Origin: Luteimonas sp.
GTDB taxonomy: Bacteria; Pseudomonadota; Gammaproteobacteria; Xanthomonadales; Xanthomonadaceae
Direction of reading: 5' to 3'
Length of the DNA: 64,000 nucleotides
Assembly: GCA_024707405.1 (NCBI GenBank)
Contig: JANPZU010000008.1
Location: 310,001 to 374,000 of the forward strand
Shown here: piece after piece, positions 20,605-59,429 of the stretch
How positions within the stretch are numbered: the first letter of the stretch is position 1
Layout: each line of letters opens with the position of its first letter
Translations under genes and position numbers: made by a program
The notes under the pieces: model-generated
The model's input: only the letters and a program-made list of their open reading frames with translations
The model's database searches: none
What the model was told of the DNA's origin: nothing

Positions 20605-22092
20605 ATGAGCGACCTGCAGGACCTGGTGGCGCTGATCCGCGCCGACACATCGCTGATCGTGGTCGAGACCCCGGACGAACCCCGGGTGGTCGAGTTGTTC
20701 CGGCAATCGCTCACCCATGTCTGGCGCGCGCTGCATCGCTGGTCGATCACCGAGGGCCTGCGCCGGATCGACCTCGACCGCGAGGATCCGTCCGAGACCC
20801 CGCCCGATGCCAGCACCACGCTGGCGGCGATCCGCAATGCCGACCAGCGCGGCATCTACTTGCTGCTCGATTTCCACCCTTACCTCGGTTACGCCAGCAC
20901 GCAGCGGCAGTTGCGCGAGATTTTGCAGCGCCGCGACTGCCTGCCGCACACCGTCGTGCTGGTCGGCCACAAGGTCGAGCTGCCCGCGGAACTCGAAGCC
21001 AAGGCCACGCGCTTCCGCCCGCGCCTGCCCGACGCCAATGCCTTGCTGAAGATCGTCCGCGAAGAGGCGGCCGCCTACCAGCGTGAGCACGGCGGCAAGC
21101 GCGTGGAGGCCGACGAAGACACCGTGCGTCGCATCGTGCGCAACCTGCACGGCCTCGACGCCACCGACGCGCGCCGCATCGCGCGCCACCTGATCTTCGA
21201 CGACGGCGTGCTCGGCCCCGGCGACCTGCCGGCGCTGGCGAAGCTGAAGTTCGAGCTGCTCAACAAGAGCGGCCACCTGCATTTCGAATACGACACGGCG
21301 CAATTCGCCGACGTGGCCGGCGCGCACCGGCTCAAGCGCTGGGTCGAGCAACGGCGGCGCGTGTTCGTCGATGGCGACGCGCCGCCCGGCCTCGACCCGC
21401 CCAAGGGCGTGCTGCTGCTGGGCGTGCAAGGCTGCGGCAAGTCGCTGCTGGCCAAGGCCGTCGCAGGCGGCTTCGGGGTGCCGCTGGTGCGGCTGGATTT
21501 CGGCACGCTGTACGCCAAGTACCACGGCGAGACCGAAGCCAACCTGCGTGCGGCGCTGGCATCGACCGAACAACTCGCGCCCTGCGTGCTGTGGATCGAC
21601 GAGATCGAGAAGGGACTCGCATCCAGTGGCGCCGATGGCGACGGCGGCGTGTCGAGGCGCGTGCTCGGCTACCTGCTCACGTGGATGGCCGAGCGCAAGT
21701 CGAAGGTGTTCCTGGTCGCCACCGCCAATCAGGTGCACGAGTTGCCGGCCGAACTGCTGCGCAAGGGCCGCTTCGACGAAATCTTCTTCGTCGACCTGCC
21801 AGATGCCGAGGCCCGCACGCATGTGTTCGACCTGCACCTGCGGCGGCGCGTGCTCGACCCGGCCGGCTTCGACCTGCCCGCCCTCGCGCACGCGGCCGAA
21901 GGCTTCTCCGGCGCCGAGATCGAACAGGCCATCGTGTCCGCGCTGTATGCCGCTCATGCGCAAGACGCTCCGGTCGACGATGCCCTGCTGCACGACGAAC
22001 TCCGCGGCACCCGGCCACTGTCGGTGGTGATGCGCGAACAAGTGGCAGCCTTGCGTGCATGGGCACGCGAGCGCACGGTGCCGGCGAACTGA
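20605..22092 (+). CDS. AAA family ATPase (Ycf46/FtsH-like, non-proteolytic)
   Basis: A 495-residue AAA+ ATPase resembling Ycf46. Residues 1 to about 230 are an N-terminal domain that itself looks like a degenerate ATPase half (DLVALIRADTSLIVVETPDE, RGIYLLLDFHPYLGY, HTVVLVGHKVELP). The active AAA module has Walker A GVQGCGKS (about 273-280), Walker B CVLWIDEIEKG (about 327-337), sensor 1 VFLVATANQ and an arginine finger region LLRKGRFDEIFFVDLPDAEAR, then a C-terminal lid (EGFSGAEIEQAIVSALYAA). No protease domain. Ycf46 proteins are linked to carbon-dioxide response in cyanobacteria; here the role is unknown. It is divergent from the parA-like gene, 117 bp away. Confidence 0.85.
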   Translation: MSDLQDLVALIRADTSLIVVETPDEPRVVELFRQSLTHVWRALHRWSITEGLRRIDLDREDPSETPPDASTTLAAIRNADQRGIYLLLDFHPYLGYASTQRQLREILQRRDCLPHTVVLVGHKVELPAELEAKATRFRPRLPDANALLKIVREEAAAYQREHGGKRVEADEDTVRRIVRNLHGLDATDARRIARHLIFDDGVLGPGDLPALAKLKFELLNKSGHLHFEYDTAQFADVAGAHRLKRWVEQRRRVFVDGDAPPGLDPPKGVLLLGVQGCGKSLLAKAVAGGFGVPLVRLDFGTLYAKYHGETEANLRAALASTEQLAPCVLWIDEIEKGLASSGADGDGGVSRRVLGYLLTWMAERKSKVFLVATANQVHELPAELLRKGRFDEIFFVDLPDAEARTHVFDLHLRRRVLDPAGFDLPALAHAAEGFSGAEIEQAIVSALYAAHAQDAPVDDALLHDELRGTRPLSVVMREQVAALRAWARERTVPAN

Positions 22093-22128: not shown

Positions 22129-22263
22129 ATGCAGGGCATGAGGAAGACCATCGGCACATGCCGCGGGAACCATCCGCCGGCGACACTGTCCATCTTGACC
22201 GGGCGCGGCGCGCAGGCGCACGCGAGGGAACGCATGGGGCATCGGGGGAATCACCGGACATGA
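22129..22263 (+). CDS. Possible small ORF coupled to the ABC ATPase gene
   Basis: A 44-codon ORF, MQGMRKTIGTCRGNHPPATL and onward, ends at 22263 with its TGA overlapping the ATG of the ABC ATPase (ATGA). A second in-frame ATG lies at 22138. The peptide is basic and has one Cys. There is no strong ribosome site and no family resemblance, so this may be chance; it is recorded because the overlap pattern matches that of every junction in the downstream operon. Confidence 0.2.
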   Translation: MQGMRKTIGTCRGNHPPATLSILTGRGAQAHARERMGHRGNHRT

Positions 22264-22938
22264 TCGAACTGCAGGATGTGCACCGGCACTACGCCATGGC
22301 CGGGCAGACCGTGCGCGCACTCGCGGGCGTGAGCCTGAAAGTGGACGCCGGCGACTTCGTCGCCATCACCGGACAGTCCGGCTCGGGCAAGTCCAGCCTG
22401 CTCAACATCCTGGGCTGCCTCGACCATCCCACCAGCGGGCACTACCTGATCGAAGGCCGCGACGTGGCGACGCTCGACGACGAGGATGGCAGCGACATCC
22501 GCAACCGACGCATCGGCTTCGTGTTCCAGAGCTTCCACCTGCTGCCACGGTTGACCGTGCTGGAGAACGTGCTGCTGCCGCTGCGCTTCCATCGCGATCC
22601 GCCGGCGGACGCGCATGCCCATGCGAACGCGCTGCTGGAACGCGTGGGCCTGGGCGAGCGCCGCGACCATCGCCCCAACGAACTCTCCGGCGGCCAGATG
22701 CAGCGCGCCGCCATCGCCCGCGCACTGCTGCTGCGCCCGGCGCTGCTGCTGGCCGACGAACCCACGGGCAACCTCGACTCCAAGAGCGCCGCCGACGTGC
22801 TGGCACTGATCGACGAAGTGCACAAGGGCGGCCAGACGGTGGTGATGGTGACCCACGACAACGACATCGCCGCGCGCGCGCCCGCGCCAGGTGAAACTGC
22901 GCGACGGCAGGATCGAACATGACTCGGCACTGCACTGA
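22260..22938 (+). pseudogene. ABC transporter ATP-binding protein (MacB/LolD type), 3' frameshift
   Basis: Cytosolic ATPase of a MacB/LolD-type transporter. All motifs are intact: Walker A ITGQSGSGKSSLLNILGCLD (about residues 38-57), Q-loop FVFQSFHLLPRLTVLENVLL, signature NELSGGQMQRAAIARALL, Walker B ALLLADEPTGNLDSKSA and switch His VVMVTHDND. After the run GCGCGCGCGCCC at 22871-22883 the original frame gives a non-family tail ending at 22922; shifting by one base gives RQVKLRDGRIEHDSALH with a stop at 22936-22938, the normal MacB-type ending. The corrected protein is about 225 residues. The lesion is in a GC-repeat, so a sequencing error is likely; the core is complete, so activity might survive anyway. 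The first adaptor gene starts inside its end. Confidence 0.88.
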
Positions 22939-23899
22939 CCTGCTGCTCGCCGCCCTGCTGCTGGGCACGGCCATGCCCGCGGCGCAGGCCGTGGTGCTGA
23001 CCGGCGAAGTCCGCGCCACCGATGCGCAGGCGATCATCACCCCGCAGTCGAATTCGTCGCCGGTGGTGATCCGCTTCTTCATCCCCGAAGGCGATTCGGT
23101 GAAGAAGGGCGACGTGGTGCTGCGCATCGACCCGGGCCAGTCGGCGTCGATGATCCCCGACCTCGACGCACGCATCGAACAGACCCGCGCGAGGGGCGAC
23201 AAGGACATCGCCGACCTTGAGGTCAAGGCGCTCGATGCCGAGTTGTCGCTGGTCGATGCCGAGGCCGAACTCGCGGCCGCGCGCATCGACGCCAGGATCC
23301 CGAAGGGACTGGTCGCCGACCTCGATTACGACCGTTACCAGGGCGAACTCGACCGCGCCACGCGCGAATCCGAACTCAAGCGCCAGCAACTGGCCGAAGC
23401 GCGCGAAGCGGTGCGGCGGCGCCGCGAGGACGCCAAGCTCGAAGTCGACAAACTCATCGTGCAACGCGAGTACCACGCCTTGATGGTGCGCACGTCGGAA
23501 GTGCGCGCCGACCGCGATGGCTACGTGGTGCACGGCTTCAACAACAACTGGATCGGCGGACGCATCGACGAAGGTTCGTCGACGATGCCCGGCAGTCGCG
23601 CCGGCGAAGTGGTCAGCGGCAACGGCACCAGCGTGCGCGCCTGGGCGCTGGAACCCGACCGCCGCGGCCTGCAGGTCGGCCAACCGGTGGAGCTGAGTTT
23701 CGACGCGATTCCCGGCAGCCGGATCGAGGGCCGCATCAGCGCGATCTCCGGTGCGCCCGACCGACGGCAGGAATGGGGCAGTGGCCGCTACTTCACCGTC
23801 GACATCGACTTCGATGCCGGCAGCCACAAGTTGTTGCCGGGCATGAGCGCGCGCGTGGTCGCACGCCCTGCCGCCCAAGCAGCCGGAGCAGGCCGATGA
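22919..23899 (+). CDS. HlyD-like periplasmic adaptor protein 1 of the ABC operon
   Basis: A 326-residue periplasmic adaptor with a signal peptide (MTRHCTDLLLAALLLGTAMP, cut near AQA, residue 24). The order is: lipoyl-type half-motif VIRFFIPEGDSVKKGDVVLRID (about 51-72), a long coiled coil of about 110 residues with an acidic/basic pattern (residues about 80-185), the second lipoyl half VRADRDGYVVHGFNNNWIGG, and a beta-barrel segment LQVGQPVELSFDAIPGSRIE. This is the membrane-fusion protein layout that links an inner-membrane pump to the outer membrane. It overlaps the ATPase gene by about 20 bp and the next adaptor by four bases. Confidence 0.85.
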   Translation: MTRHCTDLLLAALLLGTAMPAAQAVVLTGEVRATDAQAIITPQSNSSPVVIRFFIPEGDSVKKGDVVLRIDPGQSASMIPDLDARIEQTRARGDKDIADLEVKALDAELSLVDAEAELAAARIDARIPKGLVADLDYDRYQGELDRATRESELKRQQLAEAREAVRRRREDAKLEVDKLIVQREYHALMVRTSEVRADRDGYVVHGFNNNWIGGRIDEGSSTMPGSRAGEVVSGNGTSVRAWALEPDRRGLQVGQPVELSFDAIPGSRIEGRISAISGAPDRRQEWGSGRYFTVDIDFDAGSHKLLPGMSARVVARPAAQAAGAGR

Positions 23900-24873
23900 C
23901 CGTGCGCCGCCTCTGCCTCCCGATTGCATTGGCCGCATTGTTGCCGCTGGCCGCGCAGGCCGCGACGCTGCGCGTCGACGGCGAGGTCTACGCGCTGGAC
24001 AAGTCGCAGCTGATGCCGCCGATGATCGACCGCGTCTGGAACTTCAACATCACCCGACTCGCGCCCGATGGCGAACCGGTGAAGCAGGGCGACGTGGTGC
24101 TGGCCTTCGACGGCAACCAGATCATGCAGCAGCTCACCGAGAAGCGCAGCCAACTCGCCGAGAAGCAGCGCGAGCTGGAGAAACTCGAACTCGACCTCGC
24201 CGAACGCGAGCGCACCGAACGCCTGTTCACCGCCGAGGCGCAGGCGACACTGGACAAGGCCGAGCGCAAGACCGAGCAGCCGCGCGAACTGATCGCCGCG
24301 CTGCAGTACGACAAGCTGGTCGAGGAACGCAGGCGTGCCGAGCGACGGATGCAGCTCGTGGCGCAGCGCGAGCGCCTGGCCGCGGAGCAGCGGCGCCAGG
24401 AGCGCCGGCTGGTGCAATCGGAACTCGGGCAGTTGCAGGCCGACGTCGATCGCCTGCAGGCCTCACTGGTGCAACTCAACATCGTCGCGCCGCGCTCGGG
24501 CGTGATGATGCACAAGAGCAGTTGGAGCGGCGACAAGTTCGACGTCGGCTCGCAGGTGTGGCGCGGCCAGACCATCGCCGAGATCCCCGACAGCGACACC
24601 CTGGCCGTGCGTGCGGAGCTGCCCGAGCGCGACCTGTTGCGCGTGTCGGTCGGCGCACCCGCGCGGATCGTGGTCGAAGGCGGTGGTGGCAGCGCGCATC
24701 GCGGCACCGTCGCCGCCATCAGCCGCACCGTGCGCAGCAAGTCGCAGGTGCAGCCGATCCCGATCGTCGACGTCGAGATCCGCCTCGACGACCAGGCCGT
24801 CCGCCTGCGTCCCGGACAGGCGGTGCGCGTCGAACTCACCGTGCCCGACCAGACCGCGGGAGCCGGACGATGA
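23896..24873 (+). CDS. HlyD-like periplasmic adaptor protein 2 of the ABC operon
   Basis: A 325-residue adaptor with a signal peptide (MTVRRLCLPIALAALLPLAA, cut after AQA, residue 23). It has a split lipoyl motif (FNITRLAPDGEPVKQGDVVLAFDG, about residues 48-71; VQLNIVAPRSGVMMHKSSWS, about 191-210), a very charged coiled coil between (EKRSQLAEKQRELEKLELDL and on), and a beta-barrel part (VGAPARIVVEGGGGSAHRGT). It is clearly homologous in layout to adaptors 1 and 3 but diverged, so the three are not simple recent copies. ATGA overlaps join it to both neighbours. Confidence 0.85.
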   Translation: MTVRRLCLPIALAALLPLAAQAATLRVDGEVYALDKSQLMPPMIDRVWNFNITRLAPDGEPVKQGDVVLAFDGNQIMQQLTEKRSQLAEKQRELEKLELDLAERERTERLFTAEAQATLDKAERKTEQPRELIAALQYDKLVEERRRAERRMQLVAQRERLAAEQRRQERRLVQSELGQLQADVDRLQASLVQLNIVAPRSGVMMHKSSWSGDKFDVGSQVWRGQTIAEIPDSDTLAVRAELPERDLLRVSVGAPARIVVEGGGGSAHRGTVAAISRTVRSKSQVQPIPIVDVEIRLDDQAVRLRPGQAVRVELTVPDQTAGAGR

Positions 24874-26258
24874 TGAGACGTCCCGTGACTCGCCGCCCCG
24901 TAGAGCGGAGCTTGCTCCGCTGCGCTGGCATCCATCTCTTTCATGTGCGGCAACGATGCCGCGGCAAAACAGCGGAGCAAGCTCCGCTCTACGCCAAGAT
25001 TGTGTTGGCGACATTGCTTGCGGCCGCGCTGCTCACGGCCTGCGGCAGCAACGAAACACCGCCCGCCAGCGAGATCGCCGCCACCGGTGAGCTGGTGCTC
25101 AGCATGCACGGCGAGGGCGAGCTGCGTTCGGCCAAGCCGACGCCGCTGTCGGTACCCGGCCGCAACTGGGCGCCGCGCCAGGTGGAATGGATGTTGCCCG
25201 AAGGCAGCCTGGTGAAGCAGGGCGACCTGCTGGCCAGGTTCCGGGCCGACGAAGGCAAGCAGCAACTCGACCTCGCCTTGCTCGACCTGCAGCGCAACGT
25301 GCTGTCGCGACTGGCGAAGGAAAGCGAATTGCTGGCGTCGCAGGGACGCGTCGATGTCGACCTGGCCCAGGTCGCGGTGCAGCTCGGCATCGCCCAGCGC
25401 TACGCCGATGCCGACCTCAGCACGCTGGCGCGCAACGAAGTGCTCGACGCCATCGAGGACAGCAAGTACCTCGAAGAGCGCCAGGACACGCTGGAGTGGC
25501 AGCGCGGGCAATCGGCCACGCGCGGCGGTGCCGAACTCGCCGTGCTCGACGCGCAGCGCGCGACCTTCGACCTCAATGCCAGGACACGACGCGACGACCT
25601 CGACGCACTGGAACTGCGCGCGCCCAACGACGGCGTGCTGCTGTTGACCGCCAACTGGTCGGGCGACAAGCCGATGGTCGGTGCCACCCTGCGCGCCGGA
25701 CAGGAGTTCGGCAACCTGCCCGACACCGCGGCGATGGAAGTGCAGATCGACCTGCCGCAGATCGAGGCGCAGGGCATCAAGGCCGGCAACACCGTCGAAC
25801 TGCATCCGCTCGGCCGCCCCGACCAGGCTTTCACCAGCGAGCTGGGCTGGGTCGCGAGCGCAGCCACCGTGCTCGATCGCGAAAGCCCGGTGAAGTACCT
25901 GTCGATGCGCGCGACGGTGCCGGCGGATGCCATCCAGAAATACGGCTTCGTGCCCGGCCAGCGTTTCGCCGCGAAGGTGATCCTGCTGCGCGAACCCGAT
26001 GCCTTGAGCGTGGCCAACGTCGCCATCGAACAACAGGACGGCAAGCACTGGGTACAGGTGCGCAACGGTCGCGGCTTCGAGCGCCGTGAAGTCGAGCTGG
26101 GCGTGCGCGGCACCGCACGCTCGCAGGTGGTCGCGGGCCTGAAGGCCGGCGACGAAGTGCTGCTGTCGCCGGGCGGCGTGGAACTGCCGCTCAAGACCGG
26201 CGACGACGATGCAACGACGACCGAAGACGCGGCCGCCGCCGAGGAATCCACGCCATGA
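24870..26258 (+). CDS. HlyD-like lipoprotein adaptor 3 of the ABC operon, REP pair inside its signal peptide
   Basis: A 462-residue adaptor lipoprotein: lipobox LLTAC with Cys 58, split lipoyl motif (WMLPEGSLVKQGDLLARFRA; LELRAPNDGVLLLTANWSGD), coiled coil between, then beta-barrel and membrane-proximal domains (IKAGNTVELHPLGRPDQAFT; VRGTARSQVVAGLKAGDEVL) and an acidic tail. The N-terminus is odd: residues 11-41 are encoded exactly by a 93-bp REP pair (24900-24992). Without it the product would begin MMRRPVTRRP-AKIVLATLLAAALLTAC, a textbook lipoprotein signal. With it the n-region is about 43 residues long and basic. The start ATG 24870 overlaps the stop of adaptor 2; an in-frame GTG (25001) inside the hydrophobic core is too short to serve. 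Confidence 0.85.
   Translation: MMRRPVTRRPVERSLLRCAGIHLFHVRQRCRGKTAEQAPLYAKIVLATLLAAALLTACGSNETPPASEIAATGELVLSMHGEGELRSAKPTPLSVPGRNWAPRQVEWMLPEGSLVKQGDLLARFRADEGKQQLDLALLDLQRNVLSRLAKESELLASQGRVDVDLAQVAVQLGIAQRYADADLSTLARNEVLDAIEDSKYLEERQDTLEWQRGQSATRGGAELAVLDAQRATFDLNARTRRDDLDALELRAPNDGVLLLTANWSGDKPMVGATLRAGQEFGNLPDTAAMEVQIDLPQIEAQGIKAGNTVELHPLGRPDQAFTSELGWVASAATVLDRESPVKYLSMRATVPADAIQKYGFVPGQRFAAKVILLREPDALSVANVAIEQQDGKHWVQVRNGRGFERREVELGVRGTARSQVVAGLKAGDEVLLSPGGVELPLKTGDDDATTTEDAAAAEESTP
24900..24992. repeat. GTAG-type REP pair inside a coding sequence
   Basis: Begins GTAGAGCGGAGCTTGCTCCG and ends with its inverse (CGGAGCAAGCTCCGCTCTAC). Each end is itself a hairpin (GCGGAGC-TT-GCTCCGC), and the two are in inverted order with about 45 bases between. 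Length is 93 bp, exactly 31 codons, with no stop in the host frame. The form matches the GTAG (SMAG) REPs of Stenotrophomonas, though with a GCGGAGC stem instead of the GCCGAGC seen at 29.2 and 52.4 kb. Confidence 0.85.
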
Positions 26259-27502
26259 AATGGATCTCGAAACTGCCGCCTGTGTGGCGTGAAGCGGTCG
26301 AGGAACTCTGGCGCCGCCGCCTGCGCACCCTGCTCACCCTGCTCGGCCTGATCTTCGGAGTCGGCGCGATCGTGGCGATGCAGGCCGTCGGCGAAGGCAG
26401 CAAGCGCGAAGCGCTGCGCCTGGTCGAAAGCCTCGGCCTGCACAACCTGATCGCCGAGGTGAAGCCGCAGGACGAAGCCACGCTCAAGGAATCGCGTGCG
26501 CGTAGCCTCGGGCTGAGCGTGGCCGATGCGCATGCCGCACTGGCGGTGGTGCCGGGGGCGGAGAAGTTCGCCGCGGAAAAACGCATCCGCACGCATACCG
26601 TGTTCAGCGATACCGGGCGCAGCGATGCACAGGCCAGCGGCATCAGCGCCGACTGGTTCGAACTGTCGTCGTTGCAGGTCGCCAAGGGCCGCGCACTCAA
26701 CGCCGAGGACGAGAACGCGCTGGCACCGGTGGCGGTGGTCGGGCACCAGGCCGCATCCAACCTGTTCCAGGGGGTCGATCCCGTCGGCCAGCTGATCAAG
26801 GTCAACCACGTCTGGCTGGAGGTCGTCGGCGTGCTTGCCGATCGCGACCTGGGCAAGGACGATTTCGAAGGCGTGCAGCTGGGCTCGGAAAGCAATCGCG
26901 TCTACGTGCCGCTCGCCAGCGCGCGTGCGCGCTTTCGCTTCCAGCCGCAGGAGGACGAGATCGACCGCTTCCTGCTGCGCCTCGACTCGCCGACCAAGCT
27001 CGCCGCGGGTGCGGGCGTGCTGTCGGCGGTGCTCGACCAGCGCCATGCCGGCATCGCCGACTACCAGCTCGTGGTGCCGCAGCAACTGTTCCAGCAGCAC
27101 CAGCAGACGCAACGCATCTTCCAGGTGGTGATGGGTGCGATCGCGGTCATCAGCCTGGTGGTGGGCGGCATCGGCATCATGAACATCATGCTGGCCAACG
27201 TGCTCGAACGCCGCCGCGAGATCGGCCTGCTGCGCGCGCTGGGCGCGCGCAAGCGGGACGTGATCGCACAGTTCCTGCGCGAGGCCAGCGTGATCTGCAT
27301 CGCCGGCGCCGCGCTCGGGTTGGCGTTCGGCGCGATCCTCGCCTACCTGATCGCGACCTTCGCCGGCTGGCAGGTGGCGTGGGCGCCGGTGCCGATCCTG
27401 CTCTCGGCCTCGTTCTGCGCGCTGGTCGGCCTGGCGTTCGGCGTGTATCCGGCGCGGCAGGCCGCGCAACTCGACCCCATCGCCGCGCTGCGCCACGAGT
27501 AA
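26255..27502 (+). CDS. ABC transporter permease (MacB/FtsX family)
   Basis: A 415-residue inner-membrane permease with the MacB layout: first transmembrane helix after a basic start (RRRLRTLLTLLGLIFGVGAI, about residues 22-42), a periplasmic core domain of about 220 residues (MacB_PCD: VPGAEKFAAEKRIRTHTVFS, VVGHQAASNLFQGVDPVGQL), then three helices of the FtsX domain (VVMGAIAVISLVVGGIGIMN, the RRREIGLLRALGARKRDVIA coupling loop, and the end YPARQAAQLDPIAALRHE). MacB-type systems use mechanical force to drive export from the periplasm. Here ATPase and permease are separate genes and three adaptors lie between them. The ATG overlaps the adaptor 3 stop (ATGA). Substrate unknown. Confidence 0.9.
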   Translation: MKWISKLPPVWREAVEELWRRRLRTLLTLLGLIFGVGAIVAMQAVGEGSKREALRLVESLGLHNLIAEVKPQDEATLKESRARSLGLSVADAHAALAVVPGAEKFAAEKRIRTHTVFSDTGRSDAQASGISADWFELSSLQVAKGRALNAEDENALAPVAVVGHQAASNLFQGVDPVGQLIKVNHVWLEVVGVLADRDLGKDDFEGVQLGSESNRVYVPLASARARFRFQPQEDEIDRFLLRLDSPTKLAAGAGVLSAVLDQRHAGIADYQLVVPQQLFQQHQQTQRIFQVVMGAIAVISLVVGGIGIMNIMLANVLERRREIGLLRALGARKRDVIAQFLREASVICIAGAALGLAFGAILAYLIATFAGWQVAWAPVPILLSASFCALVGLAFGVYPARQAAQLDPIAALRHE

Positions 27503-27607: not shown

Positions 27608-28045
27608 ATGCTGCGAACCTGTGTTGCCGCCTGCTTCGCGTGGGTGGCGCTGACATGGCAGCTACCAGCGCACGCCGCCGACGGCTGCCCGCGATTGCCG
27701 CAAGGCAGCGAGCTGCGCTGGGAGCAGCGCGACGTGCCCGGCATGGTGTTCTGCAAGGCGCTGTCGACGATCGACGGTGCCGAGATGTTCTCGGTCACGC
27801 TCGGCGCCTCGCTGCCGTTCCGTCCGGTCGGCAGCCAGCAATCCGGCCGTGGCACGGTCGCCGGCCAGCGCGTGCGCTGGTACCGCGGCAACGATGGTTT
27901 CGATCCCGACGCGGTGTTGCGCGAAACCCTGCTCAAGCTCGGGCGCGGGCGCGAAGCGCACATCGTGGTGCGCGCACATTCGGAAGACGCGCTCGAACAG
28001 CGGATGCAACTGGTCGAAACCATCGGCTTCGACGCCGGCGGCTGA
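27608..28045 (+). CDS. Secreted protein of unknown function
   Basis: A 145-residue protein with a clear signal peptide (MLRTCVAACFAWVALTWQLP, cut after AHA, residue 23). The mature part of about 122 residues has two Cys (CPRLPQG; MVFCKALSTIDG) that could form a disulfide, and no membrane segment. I do not recognise a family. A purine-rich GGAGGGTGCGGAG stands directly before the ATG at 27608, which is preferred over an ATG at 27569. It lies 105 bp downstream of the ABC permease on the same strand, so it could be the last gene of that operon or an exported partner; no evidence beyond position. Confidence 0.65.
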   Translation: MLRTCVAACFAWVALTWQLPAHAADGCPRLPQGSELRWEQRDVPGMVFCKALSTIDGAEMFSVTLGASLPFRPVGSQQSGRGTVAGQRVRWYRGNDGFDPDAVLRETLLKLGRGREAHIVVRAHSEDALEQRMQLVETIGFDAGG

Positions 28046-29180: not shown

Positions 29181-29248
29181 CGTAGAGCCGAGCTTGCTCG
29201 GCTTGGGCGACGATGTTGTAGCGACAGCCGAGCAAGCTCGGCTCTACC
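29181..29248. repeat. GTAG-type REP pair
   Basis: CGTAGAGCCGAGCTTGCTCG at one end and CGAGCAAGCTCGGCTCTACC at the other, with about 22 bases between. It is intergenic, between a helical secreted-protein gene and ggt. Same core (GCCGAGC-TT-GCTCGGC) as the pair at 52449-52542. Confidence 0.85.
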
Positions 29249-52448: not shown

Positions 52449-52542
52449 CGTAGAGCCGAGCTTGCTCGGCTGATGCAATTACGACGCCATCACCGGCCTT
52501 CCAAGGCCAAAGGCAAGGCAGCCGAGCAAGCTCGGCTCTACG
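52449..52542. repeat. GTAG-type REP pair
   Basis: CGTAGAGCCGAGCTTGCTCG at the left and CGAGCAAGCTCGGCTCTACG at the right in inverted order, with about 50 bases between. It lies between folE and the efflux outer-membrane gene and has the same core as the pair at 29181-29248. Confidence 0.85.
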
Positions 52543-52594: not shown

Positions 52595-54034
52595 CTAATG
52601 CCCGGCCAGTCGTTCGCGATCGGGTGCCAGCTCCGGCCAACCGCCCGCCAACGCCTTGTACAACGCCACGGCACTGGCGACGCTGCGGGCGCGCGCTTCG
52701 GCGAAGGCATCCTGCGCCTGCAGTTGCGTGCGCTCGGCATCCAGCACCTCCAGCAAGCCGGAGGCACCGGCTTCGTAACGCACGCGTGCCAGCCGCGCCG
52801 CTCGCTCGCCATTGTTCGCGGCACGCTCGAGGTGTGCGTCCTCGACCCGCGTGCGTTCATGCCTCACCAGCGCGTTCTCGGTGTCTTCCAGCGCCAGCAG
52901 CACCGTTTGCCGATAGCGGGCAAGCTCGCCTTCGGCATCGGCATCGGCCGCCGCGATACGTGCGCGCACGCGGCCGATGTCGAGGAACGACCAGTCGATT
53001 CCGAGCGCGACGATGCGCGTCTCGCTGTCGCGTTCGAACAGCAGGCTGCTGTCGATGGCCTGGCTGCCGATCAATCCGCCCAGCGTGAAGCGCGGGAACA
53101 GGTCGGCCGTCGCCACGCCGATGCGTGCGGTCGCGGCATGCAGACGCGCTTCGGCGGCGGCGATATCGGGGCGTGCGCGCAACAGGTCGCCCGGTGTGCC
53201 GGCATCGATCCGGGCCGGCAACGCAGGCAGCGGCTTCACCGTGGACAACTCGTCTACCAGCGCGCCCGGGAGGCGTCCGCCCAGCACGGCCAACCGGTGC
53301 ATCGCCATCGTTTCCTGCGCTTCCAGTGCGGGGATGCGCGATGCAGTGGCTTCGAACTGCGCCCGTGCCCGTGCGATGTCGAATTCGGTGCCGGCGCCGG
53401 CATCGAGCCGCGCCTGCACCAGGTCGAGCGTTCGCTGCTGGTTGTCGCGGTTGGCACGCGCCACGCGCAGGCGTTCCTGGGTGCCGCGCAGGTCGACGTA
53501 GGTACTCGCCACTTCACCGGCGATCACTACCTGCATCGCACGCAGGTCGGCGGCGCTCGCTCCGGCATCGGCACGGCCGGCTTCGATGCCGCGGCGCACG
53601 CGACCGAACAGATCCAGTTCCCAGCCGGCGGAAATGCCGGCGCTCCAGTTCTCGCCATCGCGCCCCTCGCGCGATGCGCCCGGTGCCTGCGATTCGCTGC
53701 TGCGCACGTCCGCCGCCTCGCCCTGCGCGGTGATCGTCGGCAGTGCGTCGAAACGCGCACCGCGCAGCAAGGCATTGGCACGGTCGTAACGCGACAAGGC
53801 GATGCGCAGGTCGTGGTTGGCGCGCAAGGCGTCATGGATGAGGTGCGCAAGCTGCGGGTCACCGAAGCCGTCGAGGAAGGCCGCGTCGAACGGCTGCACC
53901 GTATCGGCCGCGGCATCCGGTGCCGGCATCGTAGAGAACGTCGCCGGCACCGCCATCGAAGGACGCACATGGTCGGGGCCGACTGCGCAGGCCGCGAGCA
54001 ACGCGCTGGCCAGCACCGTGGTCGCGAGACGCAT
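52595..54034 (-). CDS. smeX: Outer-membrane efflux channel lipoprotein (SmeX/OprN-like, NodT family)
   Basis: A 479-residue TolC-type channel subunit. Lipobox ALLAAC (Cys 16), then [18 protein letters not shown], typical of the NodT/OprM group, and two tandem outer-membrane-factor repeats ([40 protein letters not shown]) with long helices and [16 protein letters not shown] and [20 protein letters not shown] strand motifs. It completes the tripartite pump with the SmeV- and SmeW-like proteins. Its ATG 54034 overlaps the smeU2-like stop (TGATG); an alternative ATG at 54040 adds two residues. Last gene of the operon. Confidence 0.85.
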
Positions 54035-58205: not shown

Positions 58206-59429
58206 TTACTTCACGCCGGCACCCGCGCTGGCAACACTCGGCGCCGTGGATTGCGCACGCATCGCCACCGTTTCCGGCGCCACCGGCATGCCCGGGAAGA
58301 ACACCTTCTGCACGCCGTTGACGATCACCTTGTCGCCGGGGATGAGCCCTTGTTCGACCACGCGCAGGCCATCGACCAGCGGGCCGAGCACCACGTCGCG
58401 ACGCTCGGCGGTGTCGCCTTCGCCCAGCACGTAGACGTACTTGCGATCCTGGTCGGTCAGTACCGCCTTGTCATCGACCAGCAACGCGTTGAATTCGCCG
58501 CTGCCTTCGAGCTGCACGCGTGCGAACAGGCCCGGCGTGAACACTCCGTCCGGATTGCGCAGCACGGCGCGCGCACGGATGGTGCCGGTGGCCGGATCGA
58601 CGCGGTTGTCGACGAAATCCACGGTGCCGGCGTGTGGGTGTCCGTCATCGCTGGCAAGGCCGACGCGCACCGGATTGCCGGTGCCGTCACGCTCGCCTTC
58701 ACGCGCCAGTCGCGCATAGCGCAGCCAGCTGCGTTCATCGGCTTCGAAGTACACGTGCACCGGATCCTGCGACACCACCGTGGTCAGCAGCGTGGCATCG
58801 GCCTGCGCCAGGTTGCCGGTGGTCACCAGCGCGCGGCCGGCACGGCCATCGATCGGCGAGCGCACTTCGGTGAACTGCAAGTCGAGGCGCGCGGCGGTGA
58901 CCGCGGCTTCTGCGGCGCGCACCGCGGCGTTGCCCTGTGCAGTGGCGGCATTGCGGGTCTCGAATTCCTCGCGCGAGATCGCCTGTGCATCGACCAGCGC
59001 CTTGGCACGCACGTTCTGTGCGTTGGCTAGCTGCGATTCGCTGCGGGCGCGTGCGAGGTCGGCCTGTGCGCGTTCGAGCGCGGCGCGATACGGCCGCTGG
59101 TCGATCACGAACAGCAGGTCGCCCTTGCGCACGGCCTGGCCTTCCGTGAACGCGACGCGCTCGACGTAGCCGCTCACGCGCGGACGCAGGTCGACGGTCT
59201 CGACCGCGACCACGCGGCCGGTGAAGTCGTCCCACTGCCGCACCTGTTCGGACAGCACGGTCGCGACGCTGACTTCGGGTGCGGGCGGCGCGCCCTCGCC
59301 CGGCGCGGCCTGGCTGCTGCAACCGATCAGGATCGCCAGCGCCAGTGCAGCGACCACGGGGCGGAAGACAGCGGTATCGAACAATTCCTTGCGCGGCTGG
59401 CGTGCCGCGACGGCATCAGAAGGCTTCAT
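58206..59429 (-). CDS. smeV: RND efflux periplasmic adaptor lipoprotein (SmeV/MexE-like)
   Basis: A 407-residue membrane-fusion lipoprotein. N-terminal basic stretch, hydrophobic segment and lipobox LIGC (Cys 37); barrel-sandwich lipoyl halves (VERVAFTEGQAVRKGDLLFVIDQRP; DLQFTEVRSPIDGRAGRALV) around a short alpha-helical hairpin (AALERAQADLARARSESQLA); beta-barrel (DPVHVYFEADERSWLRYARL) and membrane-proximal domain (VYVLGEGDTAERRDVVLGPL VDGLRVVEQGLIPGDKVIVN). It links the SmeW-like pump to the SmeX-like channel. The ATG 59429 lies 14 bp inside the 3' end of the smeU1-like gene. The 187-bp gap before smeW holds a GC-rich hairpin-prone segment. Confidence 0.88.
   Translation of the reverse strand: MKPSDAVAARQPRKELFDTAVFRPVVAALALAILIGCSSQAAPGEGAPPAPEVSVATVLSEQVRQWDDFTGRVVAVETVDLRPRVSGYVERVAFTEGQAVRKGDLLFVIDQRPYRAALERAQADLARARSESQLANAQNVRAKALVDAQAISREEFETRNAATAQGNAAVRAAEAAVTAARLDLQFTEVRSPIDGRAGRALVTTGNLAQADATLLTTVVSQDPVHVYFEADERSWLRYARLAREGERDGTGNPVRVGLASDDGHPHAGTVDFVDNRVDPATGTIRARAVLRNPDGVFTPGLFARVQLEGSGEFNALLVDDKAVLTDQDRKYVYVLGEGDTAERRDVVLGPLVDGLRVVEQGLIPGDKVIVNGVQKVFFPGMPVAPETVAMRAQSTAPSVASAGAGVK

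Follow-up and report, generated by a model that had tools for sequence, protein, structure and literature searches.

A conserved five-gene unit predicted to encode a MacB-type exporter with three different periplasmic adaptors

Introduction

In the MacAB-TolC system, a hexamer of the adaptor MacA sits on a single dimer of the permease MacB, such that three MacA protomers approach each MacB monomer through unlike contacts (PMC5985334). Tripartite pumps of this kind join unlike symmetries, namely those of the MacB dimer, the MacA hexamer and the TolC trimer, and the reason for this is hard to test in a pump with six identical adaptors. Here we describe a locus at positions 22260-27502 of a 64,000-nucleotide stretch of the Luteimonas sp. 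contig JANPZU010000008.1 (hereinafter the window, to which all coordinates refer), in which five open frames lie head to tail and code, in this order, for an ATP-binding cassette (ABC) ATPase, three adaptors (M1, M2 and M3, the last a lipoprotein) and a MacB-type permease. The order is the one that an earlier note on this DNA had claimed. Based on sequence comparisons, we consider it somewhat more probable than otherwise that the locus encodes a MacB-type (Type VII) exporter whose adaptor ring would be made of three different adaptors, most likely with two copies of each.

Results

The ATPase and the permease

The first gene of the unit (22260..22922, plus strand) codes for a nucleotide-binding subunit of the LolD/MacB/FtsE type, which matches the profile PF00005 with an E-value of 2.4e-34; its best NCBIfam models are LolD, MacB and FtsE, each of which it matches below the equivalog cut-off. 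The last gene (26255..27502, plus strand) codes for a MacB-type permease without a fused ATPase, displaying both the MacB_PCD (PF12704, E 3.1e-32) and FtsX (PF02687, E 3e-22) domains over their cut-offs and matching MacB among the solved structures (5gko, E 1.3e-50). In the window, as in the other systems that we read, the ATPase and permease are encoded by separate genes. Comparisons with described exporter families did not recover a LolCDE identity (TIGR02211 for LolD, 225.8 bits versus a cut-off of 307.75; lolCE, 46.9 versus 362.45) or that of a DevBCA exporter (DevA, 176.6 versus 295.8; DevB, 47.5 versus 129, for M2; DevC, 16 versus 290.35), and a TriABC-type resistance-nodulation-division (RND) pump does not apply, the pump here being an ABC permease. 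With the MacAB-TolC type (Type VII ABC) the locus shares a MacB core and an FtsX-like permease along with a MacB/LolD-type ATPase; the fused ATPase-permease, the single MacA-type adaptor and the R-x3-L-x6-S tip motif of that type were not found as features of the unit.

Three adaptor subfamilies

M1 (22919..23899, plus strand) was recognized from the HlyD-type profiles PF13437 (35.4 bits) and PF16576 (32.6 bits), both over cut-off, from a structure match (its profile recovers EmrA, 8zal, as the best solved match, E 3.8e-13) and from the lengths of its hairpin and C-terminal part. M2 (23896..24873, plus strand) matches PF13437 (HlyD_3; E 6.9e-12, over cut-off) and is fused to M1 in seven of the 27 systems read; its closest named relative found is from Luteimonas aestuarii B9 (91%). 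M3 (24870..26258, plus strand) falls below the Pfam and NCBIfam cut-offs, with TIGR01730 reaching an E-value of 2.4e-15, and was assigned from this match together with its lipobox and its best solved match, MacA (4dk0, E 4.5e-25), in an alignment that takes in the C-terminal part of MacA. Judged by eye, M1 and M2 carry cleavable signal sequences and M3 a lipobox, whose cysteine is invariant in all 17 aligned M3 sequences, in agreement with the two cleaved signals and one lipid anchor of the earlier description.

The 27 systems comprise that of the window, 15 from relatives, one from a metagenome bin carrying the system (L054), eight from further genomes and two from Pseudoalteromonas replicons. 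A tree of the 51 modules from 17 of these systems along with 11 other adaptors of the window genome placed M1, M2, M3 and the other adaptors each on one side of a branch, with Shimodaira-Hasegawa approximate likelihood ratio test (SH-aLRT) support of 99, 96, 100 and 97, respectively. This tree used corrected outgroup frames, and a quicker method and simpler model than the slower tree considered in the Discussion. On this tree, M1, M2 and M3 are three old subfamilies.

The subfamilies differ in what follows the barrel. M3 keeps 75-111 residues past the barrel anchor in 27 of 27 systems; M1 stops 8-31 residues past it in 26 of 27, the 27th (L107) being a fused chain that was cut arbitrarily; and M2 stops 11-24 residues past it in 18 systems and 64-72 residues past it in nine; the M2 of the window is of the short kind. 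We take the C-terminal part of M3 to be the membrane-proximal domain, a name known from MacA. This putative domain is accordingly present in M3 in 27/27 systems, in M2 in 9/27, and in no M1 version clearly.

Hairpins of equal length, their tips, and natural fusions

The earlier note had offered two readings of the three adaptors, namely a hetero-oligomeric ring, or coiled coils of different lengths that dock different partners. As hairpin length we took the number of residues separating the two lipoyl-half motifs, between which the coiled-coil hairpin lies, and set it by alignment for all 81 modules (motif spacing by itself gives 134 residues in 71, and the motif was missed in the other ten, which the alignment then resolved). 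All modules but one (80 of 81) have a hairpin of exactly 134 residues, the exception being the M1 of L107 with 133; this contradicts the second reading. The 134-column hairpin alignments contain one gapped column for M1 and none for M2 or M3, even as the barrel segment that follows ranges from 107 to 116 residues. Within a system, identity between hairpins is 8-18% for M1 versus M3 and 13-28% for M1 versus M2 (26 of 27 systems measured), and equal length maintained despite the low M1/M3 identity supports a mixed ring. Among other adaptors, ten of the 11 in the window genome could be measured (75, 75, 75, 103, 103, 89, 89, 89, 89 and 139 residues), as could ten from 26 loci elsewhere (138, 138, 138, 137, 141, 145, 152, 205, 205 and 75); a hairpin of 134 residues is absent from these 20, whose lengths come from motif spacing and not from alignment.

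A tip pattern R-x3-[LI]-x6-[ST] near the middle of the hairpin was found in one of 27 M1, one of 27 M2 and none of 27 M3 modules, such that the TolC-docking motif R-x3-L-x6-S is missing in 79/81. By a reading of positions, six of ten other adaptors of the window genome that were scanned do show the pattern. Not every adaptor that binds TolC has this motif (PMC4446572), and its absence therefore hints at another partner but does not prove one. We also considered a candidate gate loop (aromatic-x-G-x-K/R after the second lipoyl motif) and rejected it as too variable: it occurs in 18/27 M1, 18/27 M2 and 21/27 M3 modules, counts obtained with a loose pattern that also takes in off-position matches.

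In seven of the 27 systems (L057-L062 and L107), M1 and M2 form a single chain of 626-683 residues; the two fusions that were scanned each contain two HlyD_3 stretches. Such a fusion implies a 1:1 neighbor relation of M1 and M2. In the sample of the bacterial order presented below, 21 of 82 M1 places lie within frames of at least 620 residues and are probable fusions. On a concatenated tree of the 27 systems the fusion state needs a minimum of two changes; by our reading of that tree, M1 and M2 became fused at the root of the group and were later split in the family of the window. Together with the identical hairpin length, the natural fusions lend indirect support to the hetero-oligomeric ring of the earlier note.

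Conservation and distribution of the unit

Searching the proteins of 61 genomes (that of the window and 60 relatives) recovered strong M3 matches in 16, namely three of the 37 congeneric genomes, counting that of the window, and 13 of the 24 from other families; on reading, the 15 besides the window show the same gene order. A contig scan with a single M2 sequence as query found only two loci. Gene starts for the comparison of systems were picked by hand, and for the L061 M3 the position picked does not hold a start codon. A set of 72,556 plasmid records yielded two matches, both from Pseudoalteromonas: these (L121 and L122) carry the five-gene system on replicons of 1.2-1.3 Mb that are filed as non-mobilizable plasmids.

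In a sample of the order, M1 was recovered at an E-value of 1e-67 or better in 81 of 299 genomes, 80 of which have a second match at 1e-28 or better, this being M2 among the matches listed. M1, M3 and the permease are collinear at 75 of the 82 M1 places in these 81 genomes; judging by coordinates, six of the remaining seven places appear truncated or divided where a contig ends, and the last (G959) was left unclassified. In a sample of the class, one of 369 genomes reaches 1e-60, namely the window genome itself, and in a sample of the phylum ten of 398 do (window included), none beyond the class. Weaker matches in six genomes of each of these two samples (E between 1e-20 and 3.9e-28) were taken for ordinary adaptors. 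The system is a conserved unit, common within a single bacterial order and, in these samples, rare further away, and the recurrence of the same order of five genes across that order argues that the arrangement is beyond chance. The earlier note had suggested searching for this gene order across genomes and had read from it one co-produced complex; the 27 systems read and the co-occurrence and collinearity in the larger sample support one co-produced unit.

Gene junctions and a repeat within M3

Short overlaps at every junction had also been claimed. ATGA is indeed present at all four junctions, but the one between the ATPase and M1 is secondary to a frame change. Compared with L053, the end of the window ATPase has one net extra base within a stretch rich in GC (about 22869-22886), and its final 12 residues are read in a different frame from the final 17 in L053 and L054 (...PRQVKLRDGRIEHDSALH). 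This C-terminal frame, lost in the window, is kept in the 16 other systems compared, and the junction itself (gap or overlap) is unlike between L053 and L054. The ATGA overlap of the ATPase and M1 is thus a by-product of the one-base net change, which could be either a real mutation or a sequencing error.

Within the M3 frame, ahead of the core of the signal peptide, lies a palindromic repeat with perfect arms of 24 nucleotides (24899..24993), and the frame stays open through this 95-base copy. The same repeat family has further copies in the window at 29186-29243 and 52454-52537 besides that at 24899-24993, and 42 exact half-copies were counted genome-wide versus none in a reversed-pattern control.

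Outer-membrane partner, cargo and neighboring genes

As the earlier note had observed, no outer-membrane channel gene adjoins the unit: the window genome has three TolC-family proteins over the PF02321 cut-off, none of them next to the operon, and among the matches listed for 23 relatives, all of which have TolC-family proteins, none is encoded within 5 kb of it. The nearest among these matches lies about 5.4 kb downstream, in L063 (G042) and L064 (G052). Approximately 25-31 kb downstream of the operon in the window, the minus strand codes for a TolC-family outer-membrane protein with two OEP repeats (52649-53851) and a HlyD-type adaptor with an 89-residue hairpin (58521-59198). Elsewhere in the window genome (C6, 678-684 kb; L003, L004 and L050), two adjoining FtsX-type permeases occur with an adaptor whose hairpin spans 139 residues.

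A small secreted two-cysteine protein (27608..28045, plus strand), whose gene starts 105 bases past the permease, had been raised as a possible cargo. It returns no Pfam or NCBIfam matches, and its only homologues are at L053 and L054, two of the 16 loci searched. Cargo status is hence unsupported, and we rejected it as a member of the unit, there being none at the other 14 loci; it is a neighbor that lies outside the conserved unit. Flanking genes vary between genomes. Ten of 39 flanking open reading frames were scanned, and these code for a PAP2 phosphatase, a GDSL lipase, a pterin synthase-like protein, a methyltransferase, a UvrD helicase, a GGDEF protein, a protein kinase and three proteins that matched no family; none of the ten could be singled out as a cargo gene. 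The gene immediately upstream of the operon, in the same orientation, codes for an AAA+ ATPase (20701-22089; PF00004, E 1.9e-30).

Discussion

We infer that the five products form a single exporter with a mixed adaptor ring. In this arrangement the ATPase and permease would constitute the usual 2+2 engine; M3, being lipid-anchored and bearing the presumed membrane-proximal domain, would seat the ring on the permease, and M1 and M2 would stand side by side to complete it. The six hairpins of equal length would then form a single tube across the periplasm, in which each helix exceeds by about two heptads those of the two adaptors that adjoin other MacB-like permeases in the window genome. With a 2:2:2 stoichiometry (M1-M2-M3 repeated twice), the ring would share the two-fold symmetry of the permease dimer and one copy of each adaptor would face each of its subunits, such that three adaptors in two copies would fit a MacB-type base without mismatch. 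By analogy with MacB (PMC5985334), from which both the uptake of substrate on the periplasmic side and the mechanism are carried over, an ATP-driven bellows motion might push periplasmic or membrane-derived substrate into the tube. Precedents in the hetero-oligomeric TriA/TriB and the fused DSY0927, as given in PMC4338810 and PMC4446572, render a mixed ring more plausible.

The most direct challenge to this composition is a 3:3 ring in which M1 and M2 alternate as a trimer of heterodimers, as has been proposed for TriA/TriB (PMC4338810), with M3 as a separate docking or anchoring factor beneath or surrounding the ring. The 1:1 relation given by the natural M1-M2 fusions would suit such a ring, as would the greater likeness of the M1/M2 hairpins (13-28%) than of the M1/M3 hairpins (8-18%) and the fact that M1 and 18/27 M2 versions end shortly past the barrel, unlike M3. 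However, the M3 hairpin equals that of M2 in 27/27 systems and that of M1 in 26/27, which would be needless outside the tube and makes this reading weaker than the mixed ring; moreover, its three-fold symmetry would restore the mismatch with the dimeric permease. We accordingly regard it as unlikely, even though it counts among the points that weigh against a ring of all three adaptors. These include the uneven distribution of the C-terminal part, from which it follows that contact at three points per permease subunit, as with MacA, has not been conserved, and the lipobox that, by eye, M2 also bears in L063-L066, by which the adaptors do not divide their roles in the same way in all systems. 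Further, the equal hairpin length could be inherited, with each adaptor separately docking the same partner, and a two-fold ring would in turn mismatch a three-fold TolC. The slower tree recovered M1 as one group but neither M2 nor M3 as a single group, in an analysis where the 11 outgroup rows consisted mostly of frames from the wrong strand, with four of the 11 omitted from the tree. Finally, AlphaFold models built from three sequences were poor, with a predicted local distance difference test score (pLDDT) of 40.3 for M3, which is unusable, and 60.6 for M1, where mainly the hairpin helices are good.

Two other readings dispense with a mixed ring altogether. Were the adaptors three interchangeable homo-hexamers that use the same permease and each lead to a different outer-membrane partner, as in the second reading of the earlier note, the differences among the three hairpin tips would be accounted for, but the identical hairpin lengths, the M1-M2 fusions and the M1 versions without a membrane-proximal domain would not, and no M1 place, bar the apparent contig ends and G959, is shown to be without M3 and the permease; we give this little chance. 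That M3 might be the sole working, MacA-like adaptor, with M1 and M2 as cargo-binding or regulatory subunits that keep the adaptor fold, draws on its being a lipoprotein in all 17 aligned cases, its likeness to MacA and its status as the only adaptor with the membrane-proximal part in 27/27 systems. We give this likewise little chance against the full-length, nearly gap-free hairpins and the barrel segments that M1 and M2 retain over a large divergence.

Returning to the ring of three adaptors, a more tentative extension, which we hold to be rather doubtful, is that the 2:6 mismatch has been evolved away here, giving a two-fold hetero-hexameric tube that would be longer than that of MacA and would use three distinct tips lacking the TolC motif to meet a non-canonical partner. 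If the mixed ring is correct, a separate gene may serve each place in the ring, with two of the genes sometimes fused, and the positions could be mutated one by one; hetero-oligomeric adaptors would be extended from RND to ABC pumps; and the unit would define an exporter common in one order (81 of 299 genomes sampled) and without a description in the open-licence literature searched.

Comparison with known systems

In the open-licence papers searched, which included a Chem Rev 2021 review searched by term, no account of a three-adaptor pump of the MacB type was found, in agreement with the earlier remark that no function had been described for this layout. What appears to be new is this variant, as predicted from its genes; mixed or fused adaptors have precedents elsewhere. 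With MacAB-TolC it shares a MacB-type permease, a LolD/MacB-type ATPase and, in M3, a MacA-like adaptor that includes the C-terminal part. It differs in having the ATPase on its own chain, in its three adaptor subfamilies, in the loss of the TolC tip motif in 79/81 modules, and in a hairpin of 134 residues versus 103 in the adaptors (L043 and L044) beside FtsX-type permeases of the window genome. A split ATPase, a MacB-type permease and an adaptor likewise occur in LitOPAI of Legionella and in YknWXYZ and Spr0693-0695 of Gram-positives, but each of these has a single adaptor, and LitOPAI encodes its own outer-membrane channel (PMC11559062 and PMC5985334). Among solved structures, M1 comes closest to EmrA, whose hairpin region is of similar length where the two align and which, like M1, has no membrane-proximal domain; EmrA partners the major facilitator superfamily transporter EmrB, unlike M1 (PMC5985334). 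In Desulfitobacterium hafniense, the fused adaptor dimer DSY0927, named in PMC4446572, also has two adaptor modules on one chain, whereas here two distinct subfamilies are fused and a third is separate. TriABC-OpmH of Pseudomonas aeruginosa similarly combines different adaptors on one pump in a presumed mixed ring (PMC4338810); it is an RND pump with two adaptors, in contrast to the MacB-type permease with three described here.

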